46,332 nt of DNA, from positions 1 to 46,332 of the IMG/VR virus record IMGVR_UViG_3300032677_000052. The stretch is one strand, 5' to 3'. Numbering within the stretch: position 1 is the stretch's first letter; every line of letters starts with the position of its first letter. Below are positions 22,919 to 33,481 of the stretch, piece by piece. Under the pieces are notes generated by a model. That model searched no databases, had not been told where the DNA came from, and was given only the letters and a program-made list of their open reading frames with translations. The position numbers were made by a program, and so were the translations under genes. This DNA comes from a virus.

Positions 22919-23111
22919 CTGTCTTTTCCTTTTTAACTGGGTAAACCGTTATCTCTATTTCTGGATCTACAGGTTCACCTTCTCCCCGCCAAACATACAG
23001 GCTGGCGTAGCAGGCGTGTGGAAGCGGTAGATAAGACTCAAACTCCCATCCTAATCTCTCAAAGTCTTTTTCCTTCGAGAAAGGCACATACCTGTAAAAC
23101 TTCTCTGTCAT
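22911..23111 (-). CDS. Hypothetical protein, 66 aa
   Basis: MTEKFYRYVPFSKEKDFERLGWEFE followed by a short beta part (YASLYVWRGEGEPVDPEIEI). The YxPFSKxxDFxxLGW pattern occurs in small phage proteins of unknown function. It begins at the stop of the DnaA-like gene (one-base overlap). Confidence 0.6.
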   Translation of the reverse strand: MTEKFYRYVPFSKEKDFERLGWEFESYLPLPHACYASLYVWRGEGEPVDPEIEITVYPVKKEKTDE

Positions 23112-23467
23112 TACGCCACCTTGTAAATCGGCTGTATTGGGAAGATCGTTTTCGGTGGCATCATATCATCATTTTTATCGTAATTTGGAATTTTCATTTT
23201 AACTTTAGGAGGGTCCCAACGGCGCTCTTCGATAGGCATGGACTCAATGCGCTTAACGCCATGCAATACGCTGGTATGATCTCTGTTCCCAAAATATCTG
23301 CCTATGGCGGGGTAAGAAAAACCCGTCTCAATCTTTGCTCGCCACATACAGTAATGACGCAAGTGGCATAATTCATGTGTTCTTTTTTCACCAGTAATGT
23401 CTGACGCAGGAACGCCGGTTCTTTCAGACTCTTGGCGGATTATGTCCATAACTTTTACTTTTCGCAT
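23111..23467 (-). CDS. Orphan DnaA domain IV (DnaA-box binding) protein
   Basis: 118 residues from the ATG at 23467, which follows GAGGTTGAG. The region about 10-75 (IIRQESERTGVPASDITGEKRTHELCHLRHYCMWRAKIETGFSYPAIGRYFGNRDHTSVLHGVKRIE) matches the C-terminal DnaA domain, including the signature GRYFGNRDHTSVLHGVKRI that contacts the DnaA box. The AAA+ domain is absent. The C-terminal extension of about 40 residues is not DnaA-like. A stand-alone domain IV could compete with host DnaA or recruit it to phage DNA (inference). Confidence 0.85.
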   Translation of the reverse strand: MRKVKVMDIIRQESERTGVPASDITGEKRTHELCHLRHYCMWRAKIETGFSYPAIGRYFGNRDHTSVLHGVKRIESMPIEERRWDPPKVKMKIPNYDKNDDMMPPKTIFPIQPIYKVA

Positions 23468-23512
23468 CTCAACCTCAATAAAATAAGGGGGAGATATCTC
23501 CCCCATAAAGTA

Positions 23513-28994: not shown

Positions 28995-30128
28995 ATGCGC
29001 GAATACGATATTCACTCACTATCTTTGATATTTCCTCCAATGAGTAAAGGTGATTTTGATCAACTTGCTTCTGATATATCTTCAAACGGTTTGCTTGAAC
29101 CGATTACTCTTTATGAGGATCAAATACTTGATGGCCGTAATAGATATAGAGCTTGTGTTAATACGGGTGTTTCTCCAAAGTTTGTAGATTACGAAGGTGA
29201 TGATCCTCTTACATTTGTCATTTCAAAAAATTTATCCCGCCGCCATTTAGATGAATCTCAACGTGCGATGGTTGCCGCTCGTTTAGCAAACATGAAACAG
29301 CATTCTAATCAATATAATAATGGTCAGGCAAATTTGCCGGACCACATTTCTCAAAAGAATGCAGCTGAAAAATTAAATGTCGGAGATAGATCCGTTCGCA
29401 GTGCTAGAAAAGTTATCGAAAGCGGCGACAAGAATTTAATTCAGGCAGTAGAAAATGGATCAATAGCTGTATCAGTTGCTGAAAAGATTGCTCGCCTTGA
29501 TCCAGAAGAAAGAGAGCAAGTTATATCTGCATCTCGTCCAGAACAGGCGATTAAAAAAGCTACGCGTCAAAAGAAAGAAGTTGAGTTGGCGCAACGTCAA
29601 ACTGCTTTACCGCAAAAAAAATACGGCGTTATTTATGCAGATCCTGAATGGAAGTTTGAAACATTTTCTGAAAATGGCATGGACCGTTCAGCCGATAATC
29701 ATTACCCAACAAGCGTAACTGATGATATTTGCCAACGTCCTGTTTGGGAAATAGCCGCAGAAGATAGCGTTCTATTTCTTTGGGCAACAGTGCCAATGAT
29801 TAAGGATGCCTTTAAAGTAATGGACGCATGGGGATTCACTTATAAGTCTCAAGCCATATGGGTAAAGGACCGTATAGGAACAGGTTATTGGTTCCGTAAT
29901 AAACATGAAATACTTCTTGTTGGCACTAAAGGTAAAATACCCGCGCCAGCAATGGGTGATCAATTTAATTCAATAATTGAAGCACCTCTTGGCGCACATA
30001 GTGAAAAGCCAAAAGTTTTTCATGAAATGATTGAAGCATATTTCCCAACACTTCCAAAAATAGAATTAAACGCGAGAGATGCGCGTGAAGGTTGGGATAT
30101 TTGGGGCTATGAAGCTCCAATAAAATAA
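28995..30128 (+). CDS. ParB-domain / MT-A70-type adenine methyltransferase fusion
   Basis: 377 residues. The N-terminal half is ParB-like: LIFPPMSKGDFDQLASDISSNGLLEPITLYEDQILDGRNRYRAC (about 10-53), then helices with AAEKLNVGDRSVRSARKVI (about 120-140). The C-terminal half (about 210-377) is an MT-A70 family methyltransferase: VIYADPEWKFE (the DPPW motif as DPEW), DRSADNHYPT, VLFLWATVPMIKDAFKVMDAWGFTYKSQAIWVKD, and EAPLGAHSEKPKVFHEMIEAYFP. It should methylate adenine N6 in phage DNA, perhaps at ParB-selected sites. It sits between two hairpins and carries one copy of the 24-nt palindromic repeat. Confidence 0.85.
   Translation: MREYDIHSLSLIFPPMSKGDFDQLASDISSNGLLEPITLYEDQILDGRNRYRACVNTGVSPKFVDYEGDDPLTFVISKNLSRRHLDESQRAMVAARLANMKQHSNQYNNGQANLPDHISQKNAAEKLNVGDRSVRSARKVIESGDKNLIQAVENGSIAVSVAEKIARLDPEEREQVISASRPEQAIKKATRQKKEVELAQRQTALPQKKYGVIYADPEWKFETFSENGMDRSADNHYPTSVTDDICQRPVWEIAAEDSVLFLWATVPMIKDAFKVMDAWGFTYKSQAIWVKDRIGTGYWFRNKHEILLVGTKGKIPAPAMGDQFNSIIEAPLGAHSEKPKVFHEMIEAYFPTLPKIELNARDAREGWDIWGYEAPIK
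29326..29349 (+). repeat. 24-nt repeat with 12-nt palindrome, copy 1 (inside methyltransferase gene)
   Basis: The 24 bases are identical to 32761-32784 and contain the perfect palindrome GGCAAATTTGCC (29327-29338), followed by GGACCACATTT. Three of the four bases before it also match the other copy. This copy encodes QANLPDHI in the ParB-MT-A70 protein. Confidence 0.8.
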
Positions 30129-30224: not shown

Positions 30225-32489
30225 ATGACTGAAGAATTTAATGAATTACCTTTAGAATGTCAATCATTTGATGATGAGTTTGCATCACTCATTGACTATG
30301 CAAAAATGTATAGAAGTCTGGGACTGCAAGTTGTGCCGGCCATATCGCCATCAAGCGGCAAGAACTGGAAAAGACCTGCCCTTCCCACCTGGAAAGAGTT
30401 TACACATCAGCTTGCAAGCGATGAACAGTTTGAACAGTTCTTTGCAGGTCATGCTAATTTAACTAATATTGGCCTACTTACCGGCCCATGTTCTAATAAC
30501 CTATTCATTGTTGATTTAGACATACACAAGAACCCTAATGCAATGGTCTGGTGGGAAGGTATTCACGCCGACCACAATGCCGGAATTATGTCTGAGGCCC
30601 CTACCCAAAGAACGGGCGGCGGCGGCTTGCAGATGCTTTTCTTTGCTCCAAAGGGCTGGAACCCTCCAACAATCAAAACATCTATTGGCGTCGATATTAG
30701 AGGCGTTGGCGGCTTTGCGGTTGTCGCCCCTTCCCGTCATGAAGCGCAAGGAAGCGAATATGCGTGGATTGAAGGCCAAGAGCCATACACCATCCCCATT
30801 CCTGTAGCAGATACGTGGCTATGCCAGGAAGTCGACGCGCTGGCAGCTAAGTATGGCGGACACGTTACGAATGAAGCTGGCGAGAGGGTTAGGACTGAGA
30901 CGCCTCAACATCAAACTGACGAATGGGGAAAGATCATTGATGGTCGTGAAGACCGAATGTATCGCATGATCTGGAGGACAATGCTTGACCTCTACCGCGA
31001 CTCTCCAATTATCCCAAGCGAAAGTGACCAAGTAAAATTAAAAAAGGATCTATTTGATTCTTATGTTGAGTCAGTCGAGAGCCGCTTGCGTGAACCTGGA
31101 ACGCCTAAGCATATGCTTCTTGAAAAAGAAGATCGCGGCATATCGATGTTTAATCTTAAATGGCGCGCTGCGGTTAAACAGTGGGATACAAAGGTAAGGG
31201 AACAGGCGGCAGAACCTTGGATCTACGACGAACATAAGCAGAACTACAATTTTAAAGAAAAAGTAGACTTCACCACCGATAACTCAGATGCCGTGAACGG
31301 AGAGGGAACACCAATCCGCCCCCCAGACCTTTTTAGAGTTTGGGACATAGATGATTTGGATAAACAACCGCCAGCTGTTTTTATATGGGATGGCATAGTT
31401 GTTGAGGGTGGATCACATTACTTTGCTGCTGCTCCAGGCATAGGGAAGACGTTTATCGGTCTTGGCCTAGCAGGAGCCATTGCGACAGGCATGGATAGCT
31501 TTCTTGGTAAGAAGGTCAATAGGCACGGGCTGGTGATCTACATCACTACAGAGGGCTTATATGACCATAGGAAGCGTCTCAGGGCGTTTGAGAAGACGTA
31601 TGGCGTGAAGGTGCCAAAAGAGAACTATCTTCTTATCCCAGATTCCATGAACCTTATGAATGAACGTGACCGCTCAAGGCTGATGCGGACATTGGCATGG
31701 GAAACAAAGATAAGAAACAAAATGCCCGTAATGGTCGTATTCGATACGGTCTCAAAAGTGACGCCTGGTGCTGACGAGAATACCCAGAAGGACACGACCC
31801 TTTTTATCAAGGCAAAGGCCGATATAAAGCAGGAGTTTAATTGCGCCGATCTTTGTATGCACCACCGTTCAAGAAATGGCGATGGGGCTATGCGTGGCTC
31901 AACAACCTATGAGGGCGAAGCAGACGGCATATACGTGTTTGAACGCGAGAAAGGATCAGAAGAACTTACCTTCACCGCTGCCAAGATTAAGGCCGCGCCA
32001 GACGGTTGGGACATGAAGGTGTTATTAAAGACCGTTGATCTGGACAACTTAGATACGAGCCTTGTTGCCGTTCTCCCAGATGCTCCGGGTGTTAGAGAGA
32101 AACATGATTTTGGCGGCCAACAAGAGACCGGGTATATCTTTGCAGCTGGCGTTAAGATGAGTGTGGCAGAACGAGATGAAATCCTAAGATCTGCCAAAGA
32201 AGCATGGGATGGTGGAGACCCATGGTCTATCGCTTCTCAAACAAAATATACCATGAGATATGCTCCAATATGGATTGAGAAGGTTCTTAAAAAAAGAATC
32301 AAAAACGATACACATGCTCTTTTGGTCGCCAGCGCGTTTGTCCAAATGGGCCTTTGGAGCAACGAATTAAGAAACTCAGATACAAAAATTAGAGGATTAA
32401 AGGTGTCTAATATGTATCAAAATGGCACAGAAAATACACGGAAGTCCTCAGATAGCAATAACAACGACTTCCGTGAGAATGAGGAATAA
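30225..32489 (+). CDS. Primase-polymerase / AAA+ helicase replication protein
   Basis: 754 residues. The N-terminal 280 residues are a bifunctional primase/polymerase domain: FIVDLDIHKNP (about 93-103), TGGGGLQMLFF (130-140) and GVDIRGVGGFAVVAPS (154-169) are its acidic and DIKxxGG-like motifs. From about 380 there is a RepA/AAA_25-type ATPase: AAPGIGKTFIG (Walker A, about 402-412) and MPVMVVFDTV (Walker B, about 499-508), then HHRSRNGDGAMRGSTTYEGEAD (sensor part). The protein should prime and unwind at the phage origin. Downstream lies a repeat array that could be that origin. No separate DNA polymerase is in the window. Confidence 0.85.
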   Translation: MTEEFNELPLECQSFDDEFASLIDYAKMYRSLGLQVVPAISPSSGKNWKRPALPTWKEFTHQLASDEQFEQFFAGHANLTNIGLLTGPCSNNLFIVDLDIHKNPNAMVWWEGIHADHNAGIMSEAPTQRTGGGGLQMLFFAPKGWNPPTIKTSIGVDIRGVGGFAVVAPSRHEAQGSEYAWIEGQEPYTIPIPVADTWLCQEVDALAAKYGGHVTNEAGERVRTETPQHQTDEWGKIIDGREDRMYRMIWRTMLDLYRDSPIIPSESDQVKLKKDLFDSYVESVESRLREPGTPKHMLLEKEDRGISMFNLKWRAAVKQWDTKVREQAAEPWIYDEHKQNYNFKEKVDFTTDNSDAVNGEGTPIRPPDLFRVWDIDDLDKQPPAVFIWDGIVVEGGSHYFAAAPGIGKTFIGLGLAGAIATGMDSFLGKKVNRHGLVIYITTEGLYDHRKRLRAFEKTYGVKVPKENYLLIPDSMNLMNERDRSRLMRTLAWETKIRNKMPVMVVFDTVSKVTPGADENTQKDTTLFIKAKADIKQEFNCADLCMHHRSRNGDGAMRGSTTYEGEADGIYVFEREKGSEELTFTAAKIKAAPDGWDMKVLLKTVDLDNLDTSLVAVLPDAPGVREKHDFGGQQETGYIFAAGVKMSVAERDEILRSAKEAWDGGDPWSIASQTKYTMRYAPIWIEKVLKKRIKNDTHALLVASAFVQMGLWSNELRNSDTKIRGLKVSNMYQNGTENTRKSSDSNNNDFRENEE

Positions 32490-32609
32490 TATCAATGCTT
32501 TACTATATTACGAAAGTCTCTAACTTCCGTAGTGGTTTGTTCCGTATCTACAGTATCAAAAACGTTATTGAAAATAAAGGGTTTTTATACGGAAGTAAGA
32601 CACGGAAGT
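32438..32609. repeat. Iteron-like array of ACGGAAGT octamers
   Basis: Five exact copies of ACGGAAGT or its complement: 32438-32445 (+), 32467-32474 (-), 32523-32530 (-), 32589-32596 (+), 32602-32609 (+), plus ACGAAAGT at 32510. Copies 1 and 2 extend to 9-nt inverted arms (CACGGAAGT / ACTTCCGTG), as do 3 and 4 (ACTTCCGTA / TACGGAAGT). The first two lie in the last codons of the primase-helicase gene, the others in the gap after it. Such spacing is like binding sites of a replication initiator; see the structured GC-rich stretch following. Confidence 0.7.
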
Positions 32610-32610
32610 T

Positions 32611-32680
32611 ACCCCCCTGTTCCCTACGGGAACTACCCCCCGCTCGCGCTGCGCGCCTTGAGGGCGCTCGCGCTCGCCAA
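32611..32680. other. Structured GC-rich segment, possible origin part
   Basis: Within the 308-base gap between the primase-helicase gene and the gene at 32798: ACCCCCC (32611) and ACCCCCC (32635) flank the hairpin GTTCCC-TAC-GGGAAC (32619-32633); then the 10-nt direct repeat CGCTCGCGCT (32641 and 32665) surrounds a GCGCC/GGCGC stem. GC content is far above the neighbouring sequence. No convincing gene is seen: the open frame at 32495 reads through repeats and codes Arg/Ala-rich sequence. Origin, packaging or recombination site are all possible. Confidence 0.5.
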
Positions 32681-32760
32681 ATTGAAATGGCTCTTGACGG
32701 CAAAACGAAATGGCGATACGGATATCGGCATTCGTATGATTGATATTAGTATTTTTGGTT

Positions 32761-32784
32761 AGGCAAATTTGCCGGACCACATTT
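32761..32784 (+). repeat. 24-nt repeat with 12-nt palindrome, copy 2 (before gene at 32798)
   Basis: Identical to 29326-29349. Here it is non-coding, directly before the AGGATTGATATACATG initiation sequence, a position fit for an operator. Palindrome GGCAAATTTGCC is at 32762-32773. Confidence 0.8.
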
Positions 32785-32797
32785 AGGATTGATATAC

Positions 32798-33481
32798 ATG
32801 GCATCCAAACCTAAAATCAAAAAGTCAAACGTCGACCGTGGCGTAGTCGTATCGGAATATACGTCGGTCCCATGGATGGTCACTCCTGGAGCTTACTTGG
32901 CTGGCAGAGCGGCGCTTGATGAGGCCGACGCGCTTGAAGTTGAGTTTGAGTTGAAGTGGGGCAGGGATCGGCTTCGGCTTCTTGTCGATACGGCTCTCAG
33001 AGAGAAGTTTGACCGGCAGCGCTACCTCACCAGCCAAGCACGGTGGACAGGCACGCTGGAGGACGTCCAACGCGAAGGTAAGCGTATGGCAGCGGCGTGG
33101 AAGGCGTTAGACAAGGCGGCGACAGCGGCAGGCGCTAAAGTCCTCGACCCTTCCATTTGGGAGGTGACGCTTGAGGATGGCACAGTCGCCACACTTGTCC
33201 GCGAACCACAACTAGCCAACCGCGTTCTGGCAGACGGCAGAAGAATTAACGTCTACACGCTGGAAGAAATAGCCAATATGATTTCGGCCTTTCCAGAAGT
33301 CGTGAAGGCAAAAAGAGAGTTTGCAGGGGCAACTGTAACGCGGACAAAGTCTAGCGTAATTGACCCTCTTGATATGCCTACAGGCGGAAAAAACTCAGAA
33401 GGAATATTTGATGCTACTGCTCCTATAGATGGACCACCTGAAGGCTTTGACTGGGAAAAGGGTGATGATATACCGTTTTGA
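32798..33481 (+). CDS. Hypothetical replication-associated protein with SSB-type C-terminal tail
   Basis: 227 residues starting at ATG 32798. The N-terminal part is helical (GAYLAGRAALDEADALEVEFELKWGRDRLRLLVDTALREKFDRQRYLTSQARWTG); a beta part with VTLEDGTVATLVRE (about 128-141) follows, then a flexible Pro/Gly end finishing in WEKGDDIPF. The last residues GDDIPF match the conserved DDDIPF tip by which SSB recruits replication and repair proteins. The body is not an obvious OB fold. Its ATG is just after the palindromic repeat. It could be an ssDNA-binding or SSB-mimicking protein. Confidence 0.65.
   Translation: MASKPKIKKSNVDRGVVVSEYTSVPWMVTPGAYLAGRAALDEADALEVEFELKWGRDRLRLLVDTALREKFDRQRYLTSQARWTGTLEDVQREGKRMAAAWKALDKAATAAGAKVLDPSIWEVTLEDGTVATLVREPQLANRVLADGRRINVYTLEEIANMISAFPEVVKAKREFAGATVTRTKSSVIDPLDMPTGGKNSEGIFDATAPIDGPPEGFDWEKGDDIPF

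Follow-up and report, generated by a model that had tools for sequence, protein, structure and literature searches.

A candidate replication origin in the iteron array behind a primase-helicase gene of an environmental phage

Environmental phages with a mapped replication origin are few. In the window analysed here, a stretch of 46,332 bases (positions 1 to 46,332 of the IMG/VR virus record IMGVR_UViG_3300032677_000052), copies of a short repeat crowd around the end of a primase-helicase gene. This raises the question of whether replication starts at the array and, if so, which protein reads the repeats.

The array and the protein encoded before it

The octamer ACGGAAGT is present in six exact copies on the two strands of the window (11514+, 32438+, 32467-, 32523-, 32589+ and 32602+), and five of the six lie within the 172 bases 32438-32609. 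In 100 shuffles of the whole window the mean count was 1.05 and the largest five, which scaled to 172 bases gives about 0.004. The crowding noted in the preliminary description is thus borne out, and the octamer is not equally common genome-wide, since one copy lies outside the array and about one is expected per 46 kb. The arrangement as two inverted pairs plus one octamer also holds, except that the arms are 10 nt long instead of 9: CACGGAAGTC pairs with GACTTCCGTG (32437-32446 and 32466-32475) and TAACTTCCGT with ACGGAAGTTA (32521-32530 and 32602-32611). As described, the array straddles the gene end, with two octamers within the last codons and three past the stop. The features of the region are as follows.

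30225-32489, plus strand: primase-helicase, 754 aa (Pfam Prim-Pol and AAA_25)
32438-32445, plus strand: iteron 1, exact ACGGAAGT, located within the final codons of the primase-helicase gene
32467-32474, minus strand: iteron 2, exact ACGGAAGT, 10-nt inverted pair with iteron 1
32490-32502, plus strand: exact IHF-consensus site TATCAATGCTTTA between iterons, one of three exact matches in the whole window
32523-32530, minus strand: iteron 3, exact ACGGAAGT
32538-32545, minus strand: degenerate iteron ACGGAACA, 6/8 match, read from the sequence
32557-32582, no strand: A+T-rich spacer TCAAAAACGTTATTGAAAATAAAGGG, candidate unwinding element; relatives carry a second spacer element there
32589-32596, plus strand: iteron 4, exact ACGGAAGT
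32602-32609, plus strand: iteron 5, exact ACGGAAGT
32610-32641, plus strand: two C-runs flanking the hairpin GTTCCC-TAC-GGGAAC (32619-32633), from sequence and fold
32641-32676, plus strand: predicted G+C-rich imperfect hairpin past the array, from the fold
32798-33481, plus strand: downstream gene, with a homologue behind the array in 29/36 loci

Pfam confirmed the array-adjoining gene as a primase-helicase, with a Prim-Pol domain (aa 29-189, E 4.8e-17) and an AAA_25/RepA-type RecA motor (aa 369-552, E 4.2e-26). The protein gave a profile match to RSF1010 RepA (1g8y, E 2.3e-5), Foldseek matched the motor to the RSF1010 RepA-type fold with an E of about 1e-11, and structural comparison of the motor with RSF1010 RepA gave VIA Z 24.0 over 219 residues (2.3 A, 19% identity). 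By its RecA-type RepA fold as well as by sequence, the motor belongs with the RSF1010 RepA helicase family. In the AlphaFold2 model of aa 360-754 (pLDDT 87.7) the C-terminus has the topology helix-helix-helix-strand-strand, a predicted winged helix at about aa 647-727, and the codons of the low-confidence tail (aa 733-754) contain two of the iterons. A fold search with the C-terminal domain alone yielded nothing at E 0.001 or below; many of the weak matches (best Foldseek E 0.6) are titled MarR, Fur or winged-helix proteins, and neither a known family nor novelty is asserted for the domain from this search.

Arrays in related phages and plasmids

The protein-based sample of relatives comprised 92 loci forming 48 clusters at 90% identity, with one representative per cluster, and an array was defined as a 7-mer present at least five times in 300 bp. 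Sampling favoured relatives of the helicase in the window, and motif scans had supplied four of the seven proteins in the search profile. Such repeat clusters were found in 38 of the 48 representatives; in all 38 the densest one either followed the helicase or overlapped its final 150 bp, and the cluster word had a CGGA core in 30. Resampled loci reached at most 4-5 copies of a 7-mer. Other representatives, picked for flanking DNA on both sides, gave nearly the same result (38/48 with a cluster, 37/38 downstream, 29/38 with CGGA). Among all 89 loci with a helicase stop there were 66 clusters, 63 downstream and three upstream, the latter outranking or replacing the downstream one (L215, L216 and L235); 55 of the 63 downstream clusters had CGGA, about equal DNA having been searched on either side.

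Ten of the 48 representatives had no cluster of at least five copies. L257 (60 bp) and L240 (606 bp) lack one because the contig ends early, and L224, L255 and L258 have none despite more than 3.8 kb of DNA. Two of the 38 top clusters were doubtful and were left out later, one having a top word that is not its iteron (L212) and the other resembling a coding repeat (L225).

Comparison with related phages thus revealed similar arrays behind the same helicase kind in most diverged relatives sampled, and this lends support to the earlier proposal of the array as the best origin candidate. A relative with a 57% identical helicase carries eight octamers, spread over 172 bp, in the equivalent position. 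The iteron words differ across lineages and include ACGGAAGT, GCGGAGGT, GCGGAGAT, GTCGGGTTT, TGGTTCA, CGCAACA, GTATAAA and perhaps TGTCCG. In 11 of 36 arrays the start lies more than 200 bp past the helicase stop, up to 4 kb. Over 30 arrays, the partial correlation of iteron distance with the distance between C-terminal domains, controlled for motor distance, was r 0.26 (p 0.008); with motor distance, controlled for the C-terminal domain, it was 0.15 (p 0.079). The repeat type shows a modestly closer tie to the C-terminal domain than to the motor. At one locus (L193) DnaB_N replaces Prim-Pol and the array is kept; the array therefore goes with the motor and the C-terminal part.

Two circular records listed as plasmids, with phage genes, have 12 copies of TGCGGAA or eight of CGCAACA directly after the AAA ATPase gene. 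Among 11 further named records, four had at least eight copies behind the helicase, BcepGomr four copies and a Vibrio phage three, and the other five (BFK20, GB2A, a Polaromonas plasmid, a Photobacterium plasmid and ctyzp037) had no array behind the helicase; ctyzp037 has a seven-copy cluster upstream of it. Arrays behind the gene were seen also in L189 (AAA_25) and L190 (D5-type), which were excluded from the counts. Among the 35 loci of MT-A70 relatives, in which only ACGGAAGT was scored, the full array was present in L083 alone, the window's own phage; the L084 contig ends inside the array and the other loci had 0 or 1 octamer. The DNA-level search of 32400-32800 against named phages and plasmids gave just short matches (E at least 0.4) among the matches listed. 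In the literature searched, mostly open-access journals without preprints, no title or abstract opening among the results listed dealt with arrays of this kind next to phage helicases of the RepA type.

The repeats could also be a neutral or coding coincidence. Two octamers do lie within coding sequence, and octamer runs occur in repeat proteins elsewhere: in the scan with ACGGAAGTNACGGAAGT (78 loci) several clusters were set aside as coding repeats (L121, L131, L133 and L167). However, the recurrence behind the helicase in 38/48 representatives, with repeats in either orientation and mostly not within the gene, makes a coincidence hardly credible.

Spacer elements, neighbouring genes and competing readings

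Bending sites of the IHF type are frequent, though not universal, among the iterons of such origins, and the arrays were scanned with the IHF consensus (WATCAANNNNTTR) and the DnaA consensus (TTATNCACA). Exact IHF-consensus matches numbered 13, distributed over 10 of the 36 arrays (shuffles: mean 0.2, maximum 1), at a density of 1.54 per kb, whereas the DNA preceding the arrays has 0.02 per kb. When one mismatch was allowed the count rose to 44 sites in 30/36 arrays, compared with 7.4 in shuffles. When 48 spacer elements were aligned, conservation within the core was lowest at the four positions that the IHF consensus leaves free, and a single position sets the commonest form apart from the consensus. 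In the window the second spacer element is degenerate and falls below the 12-of-18 cut. The A+T content of the arrays is in slight excess, 51% against an average of 45% for their loci.

A scan with the 18-mer TAAGTCATTGAAATCATT gave at least 120 matches; of the 80 loci among the matches listed, 22 match the helicase profile and 58 do not. In 21 of the 22 the 18-mer lies on the downstream side of the helicase (0-2.3 kb), the exception being L302. The 22 loci are not independent, as L126, L296/L353 and L331 are contigs already sampled and L342, L348 and L349 resemble one another; for L302, L325 and L358 the profile gave weak matches (E 2e-4 to 2e-8). The 58 loci without a helicase match are probably largely chance occurrences in A+T-rich phages. 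Helical phasing of the spacer elements was not retained, in view of a broad peak (R 0.67-0.79 over periods 9.5-11.5) and of the kinship among the arrays, although none of 5000 random sets reached the observed value. The palindrome GGCAAATTTGCC was likewise rejected as a family rule, being near an MT-A70/ParB homologue in just six of 80 viral loci among the matches listed.

Beyond the iterons, CCCC occurs within about 30 bp in 20/36 arrays and further on in 4/36. Hairpin folding had a mean z of -0.75 against -0.28 in control stretches, with z < -2 in 2/36, which weakened the hairpin as a defining feature; a hairpin across the array family is weakly supported. In an earlier fold set, five of ten segments start too late to include it.

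The GC skew, proposed earlier as a check, was run and is uninformative on the origin, because it tracks gene direction without a switch at the array: the cumulative skew of the whole window goes upward almost throughout and falls mainly at about 22-26 kb, in a block of minus-strand genes.

The array could be an origin whose iterons are bound by a separate initiator, the helicase being merely recruited. Lambda uses a separate iteron-binding protein. RSF1010 likewise has a distinct one (PMC4234260), and a candidate is encoded in the window, a 131-aa DnaA domain-IV protein at 23111-23506 on the minus strand (Bac_DnaA_C, E 7.2e-18). However, no DnaA box was found in any of the 36 family arrays, exact or with one mismatch, nor with one mismatch in 32401-32800 of the window. 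The array also stays with the helicase gene, and the iteron type follows the helicase's C-terminal domain. A separate initiator is therefore unlikely. Of the two binders first suggested, the DnaA-like protein is disfavoured and the primase-helicase favoured; since the arrays are free of DnaA boxes, its own C-terminal winged helix is the likely iteron binder.

An operator for the downstream gene or for the helicase operon would fit the position of the window's array upstream of the 32798-33481 gene start, and also the homologue of this gene in 29/36 loci, either directly behind the array or up to 3.1 kb off. The gene gave no trustworthy Pfam or PHROG match, in scans that covered some of the window's genes. 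In the remaining 7/36 loci the homologue was not found in the fetched DNA, and in Rhizobium phage RHph_N65 the array sits between convergent genes and can therefore be no ordinary operator. Operators seldom have five to twelve repeat copies in blocks with IHF-like sites, as these arrays do, and this reading is very unlikely.

Plasmid iterons double as incompatibility sites, which would be in line with a partition or incompatibility site, and terminase genes, which lie some kb past the array in the window as well as in the Caenibius plasmid, would be in line with a packaging signal. The position of the array is, however, tied to the replicative helicase, and the window's large terminase gene is 4 kb off; either function is highly improbable.

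Proposed initiation and comparison with known systems

As judged from the sequence comparisons, the array is very probably the replication origin of the phage, and there is a strong likelihood that its iterons are recognised by the C-terminal winged helix of the upstream Prim-Pol/RepA-type helicase. The computed support consists of the iterons, their site behind the gene, their recurrence and diversification in relatives, the IHF-like sites, the kinship with RSF1010 RepA and the winged-helix topology. In the proposed mechanism the winged helix would bind the iteron blocks, IHF or a similar bending protein would bind between the blocks and fold them together, and the A+T-rich spacer DNA would melt. 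The RecA-type hexamer would reach the opened strands through the DNA-binding domain it carries, and priming by the fused primase would take place close by, perhaps at the C-run and hairpin, which is the weakest step.

The chances are about even that this extends to many phages and phage-plasmids, with the RepA-type (RecA-fold) helicase as a one-protein initiator: its C-terminal winged helix would read a lineage-private iteron word just behind the gene, IHF would fold the array and the helicase would need neither a separate initiator nor a loader to load itself, the word varying and the place staying. Used as a search rule, iteron blocks that have IHF-like sites between them and lie behind a RepA-type helicase gene would mark candidate origins in a large number of phages and phage-plasmids not yet cultured. 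Should the helicase indeed bind the origin next to its gene, a RecA-fold replicative helicase would double as initiator; to our knowledge, the helicases documented as initiators too are SF3 and MCM-like.

Compared by description, PrimPol-PV1 (PrimQH) proteins with a RepA-type motor and a C-terminal winged helix resemble the window's protein. For most of this family the description gives other motors, together with either a PriCT or a Zn-binding domain; no origin sequence is named in the section on them, and 'iteron' is absent from the main text (PMC5862659). The archaeal plasmid pRN1 encodes in orf904 an AEP primase, a helicase and a C-terminal winged helix, with the origin downstream of the gene (PMC4234260), resembling the window's primase-helicase with its predicted C-terminal winged helix and the candidate origin past the gene. 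In pRN1, by contrast, the helicase is of the SF3 type and the origin is a stem-loop of 100 nt that has no iterons (PMC4234260).

At the oriV of RSF1010 (IncQ) the tasks of helicase, primase and iteron binding are divided among separate polypeptides, RepA, RepB' and RepC (PMC4234260), RepB' being an AEP-type primase (PMC5862659). A RepA-type hexameric helicase, a primase and iterons are common to RSF1010 and the window, where the three functions seem to be combined in a single protein whose gene adjoins the array.

In SaPI Rep with its origin and in Cch2 of SCCmec, the initiator helicase uses its C-terminal domain to bind short iterons that immediately follow its gene (PMC7581432). The window's helicase likewise has iterons adjoining the gene end, their binding here being predicted. 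The motors differ, being DUF927 or Primase_Cterm/D5 in SaPI Rep and Cch2 (PMC7581432) and a RecA-type RepA/AAA_25 motor fused to Prim-Pol in the window, and the IHF-like sites within the window's array are a further difference from SaPI Rep/ori. Because the motor is AAA_25 and like RSF1010 RepA, a SaPI-like working is possible but the protein is not a member of the SaPI Rep family; the system of the window may work like SaPI Rep/ori with an RSF1010-RepA-type motor.

The octamer array and its surroundings

The octamer ACGGAAGT is present six times in the 46332 bases of this virus record, the mean in 100 shuffles of the whole window being 1.05, and five of the copies lie within 32438–32609. The preliminary description had reported five exact octamers in 172 bases, rare by chance, straddling the end of the primase-helicase gene, and both statements held, two copies falling within the gene's final codons and three past its stop. 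The inverted pairs were also found, with arms of 10 nt instead of the 9 nt reported. Both coding copies belong to a helicase tail of low model confidence (residues 374–395 of the modelled segment, pLDDT <50). The features of the region and two elements elsewhere in the window are:

23111–23506, minus strand: stand-alone 131-aa protein with the DnaA domain-IV DNA-binding domain (Bac_DnaA_C)
29321–29349: first copy of the 29-bp stretch TGGTyAGGCAAATTTGCCGGACCACATTT, with a near-perfect palindrome, inside the ParB/MT-A70 gene
30225–32489, plus strand: primase-helicase gene (754 aa)
32438–32609: octamer array
32490–32502: exact IHF-consensus site TATCAATGCTTTA of the array; the second spacer element is degenerate
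32495–32743: 82-aa ORF
32756–32784: second copy of the 29-bp stretch, about 147 bp past the array and right before the next gene
32798–33481: conserved gene with no trustworthy family match

The 82-aa ORF is probably not a gene, since it overlaps the array and the hairpin, and a similar ORF covers the array of the related locus L043. The core palindrome of the 29-bp stretch recurs in the MT-A70 locus of L088 and of L089; the stretch may have arisen as a copied scar or may serve as a binding site. A homologue of the gene at 32798–33481 lies behind the array in 29 of the 36 family loci, and no DnaA boxes were found in the arrays. An alphaproteobacterial host is suggested by a predicted protein of the window, which we take to be GcrA-like, and by some relatives.

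Arrays behind related helicases

Two contigs, L002 (57 kb) and L003, represent the window's own phage (99.98–99.99% identity across the fetched stretches). The L003 contig terminates within the array, perhaps because the inverted repeats broke the assembly there. Among the 79 stretches obtained with ACGGAAGTTACCCC, a cluster beyond the window's own phage was present only in L043, where a 172-bp stretch, over the end of a helicase and behind it, holds eight octamers in the two orientations. This helicase is 57% identical to that of the window, and the octamers are followed by a C-run and a hairpin resembling those of the window. The tandem-iteron scan (78 loci) added three diverged helicases with an array behind them: L122 (43%), L126 (32%) and L193 (25–28%). 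Two other genes, one of them presumably a cytosine methyltransferase, separate helicase and array in L122, and a DnaB_N domain replaces Prim-Pol in L193. Rhizobium phage RHph_N65 has GCGGAGAT iterons in three blocks, separated by TAAGTCATTGAAATCATT and TAAGTGCTTGAAATCATT and followed by AAACCCCC, the next annotated gene being convergent. The iterons of EBPR siphovirus 5 are GGCGGAAGTA.

The search profile, AAA_25 with the C-terminal domain, was built from seven proteins, four of which (L043, L122, L126 and L193) had come via the motif and the other two relatives via the helicase. The best 80 of 218 viral loci and 10 genome loci, with RHph_N65 and EBPR siphovirus 5 included, gave a sample of 92 loci, which fell into 48 clusters at 90% identity. 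The densest 7-mer cluster per 300 bp was sought over the whole locus of each representative, with a cut of at least five copies. Such a cluster was found in 38 of the 48 representatives, while resampled loci (30 per locus) reached a maximum of 4–5 copies. All 38 clusters were past the helicase stop or started no more than 150 bp ahead of it, and 30 had CGGA or TCCG in their word, compared with about 3% of all 7-mers by arithmetic. When the clusters of the window and L043 were excluded, 36 of 46 had an array, all 36 downstream and 28 with CGGA/TCCG. Similar arrays were found behind diverged helicases of related phages, with which the preliminary description had proposed a comparison.

Because these representatives had been chosen for long downstream DNA, nine having less than 2 kb upstream, the count was repeated with representatives chosen for flank on both sides (189 kb upstream and 172 kb downstream searched). 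Again 38 of 48 had a cluster, 37 of them downstream and 29 with CGGA. A stop was present in 89 loci of the sample, of which 66 had a cluster: 63 downstream (55 with CGGA) and three upstream (L215, L216, L235). Ten representatives had no cluster of at least five copies (L224, L239, L240, L255, L257, L258, L270, L276, L286, L289); downstream repeats below the cut occur in L239 (four CCTCCGC) and L286 (four CGGTAAG). Two doubtful cases (L212, L225) were dropped from the 38, leaving 36 arrays, 11 of which start more than 200 bp past the helicase stop (maximum 4 kb).

The 18-mer spacer scan gave at least 120 stretches. Among the 80 examined, 22 loci matched the helicase profile, several of them redundant or already in the sample, and in 21 of the 22 the element was downstream of the helicase. 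Other iteron words in these loci included GTCGGGTTT (L336) and TGTCCAGA (L300). Locus L344 has ACTAGTCCA repeats and several IHF-like spacer copies around the 18-mer element, with no helicase-profile match within the fetched locus. Inverted GTGACGGAA repeats lie immediately behind a D5_N/Pox_D5-type helicase (L190:6918–7031), so similar iterons may also accompany another motor family.

Eleven further named records were analyzed, and four had a cluster of at least eight copies starting at most 15 bp from the helicase stop:

Further named records with a cluster at the helicase stop
Caenibius plasmid p1: 12 TGCGGAA; circular, 38 kb, with a terminase gene
Methylobacterium currus plasmid: 8 CGCAACA; circular, 35 kb, with a tape-measure gene
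Alteromonas phage XX1924: 8 TGGTTCA
Roseobacter phage CRP-821: 10 GTATAAA

In Vibrio phage 1.076.O, TGTCCG-like words are spaced out and an IHF site matches the consensus exactly, but any 7-mer reaches at most three copies. BcepGomr has four copies. No downstream cluster was found in five of the eleven (Photobacterium plasmid, Polaromonas plasmid, GB2A, BFK20, ctyzp037); ctyzp037 has a seven-copy cluster upstream.

Composition of the arrays

In many of the arrays inspected, an A+T-rich element, YAANNNNTTGAWW, present once or twice, separates the iteron blocks. The iteron word differs among arrays (ACGGAAGT, GCGGAAGT, GCGGAGGT, GCGGAACT, GCGGAGAT, GCGGAGC), some using CGGGAGTA, GCGGGTCTG, GCGAGG or TGGAAGT. 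The reverse complement of the element is close to what we take to be the IHF consensus, WATCAANNNNTTR. The exact consensus was present at 13 sites in 10 of the 36 arrays (shuffles 0.2, maximum 1), or 1.54 per kb compared with 0.02 per kb in the DNA preceding the arrays. With one mismatch allowed, 44 sites were found in 30 arrays, compared with 7.4 in shuffles. The commonest form has TTTCAA instead of WATCAA, one position off the consensus. Conservation within the core was lowest at the four positions that the consensus leaves free (48 elements, 29 arrays), in a logo flattered by picking on seed similarity. In the 19 arrays with two elements the spacings were 56–57, 66–70, 76–78 and 97, which look like helical steps, although the periodicity peak is broad and the arrays share ancestry.

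Behind the iterons, 20 of the 36 arrays have CCCC, compared with four of 36 control stretches 300 bp further on. Hairpins were seen by eye in many arrays, and their folding signal was statistically weak (mean z −0.75, controls −0.28; z < −2 in two of 36 arrays and no controls). A+T averages 51% in the arrays and 45% in their loci.

The helicase and known replication systems

The protein carries Prim-Pol (E 4.8e-17) and AAA_25 (E 4.2e-26) domains. Residues 360–754 were modelled from 54 sequences (pLDDT 87.7, pTM 0.67) as a RecA core with a C-terminal helix-helix-helix-strand-strand unit. The closest solved fold was RSF1010 RepA (Foldseek E ~1e-11; VIA Z 24.0, 219 residues, 2.3 A), also matched by sequence profile (E 2.3e-5). 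Modelled alone, the C-terminal domain (pLDDT 80) gave only weak fold matches, a large share of which bear MarR, Fur or WH titles. In 30 arrays, with motor distance held constant, iteron distance followed C-terminal-domain distance (partial r 0.26, p 0.008); the reverse relation was weaker (0.15, p 0.079). This lends modest support to this domain as a candidate reader of the iterons.

The array had been proposed as the best candidate for the replication origin. What the analysis establishes is the array's sequence, position, recurrence and spacer signature, and the homology of the helicase motor. Judged from sequence, it is very probably the origin of the phage, and very probably also one member of a conserved arrangement travelling with RepA-type helicases that bear a C-terminal winged helix. 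The recount changed 38/38 to 37/38 and the hairpin was weakened, but the odds for an origin are unchanged, as that reading depends on neither. At such an origin the iterons would be bound and the DNA bent and melted, the helicase would load itself, and priming would follow.

Such arrays were not described in the titles and abstract openings among the matches listed in a literature search. A RepA-like, AAA_25-related phage helicase has been characterized biochemically, and the available part of that report does not mention iterons beside its gene (PMC8965321). Primases have been described that are fused to RepA-type and other motors and a WH domain that might recognize origins (PMC5862659). Orf904 of pRN1 joins a primase to an SF3 helicase and a winged helix, and its stem-loop origin lies downstream (PMC4234260, where also RSF1010 is summarized), and in SaPI Rep the C-terminal domain recognizes iterons immediately downstream of the rep gene (PMC7581432).
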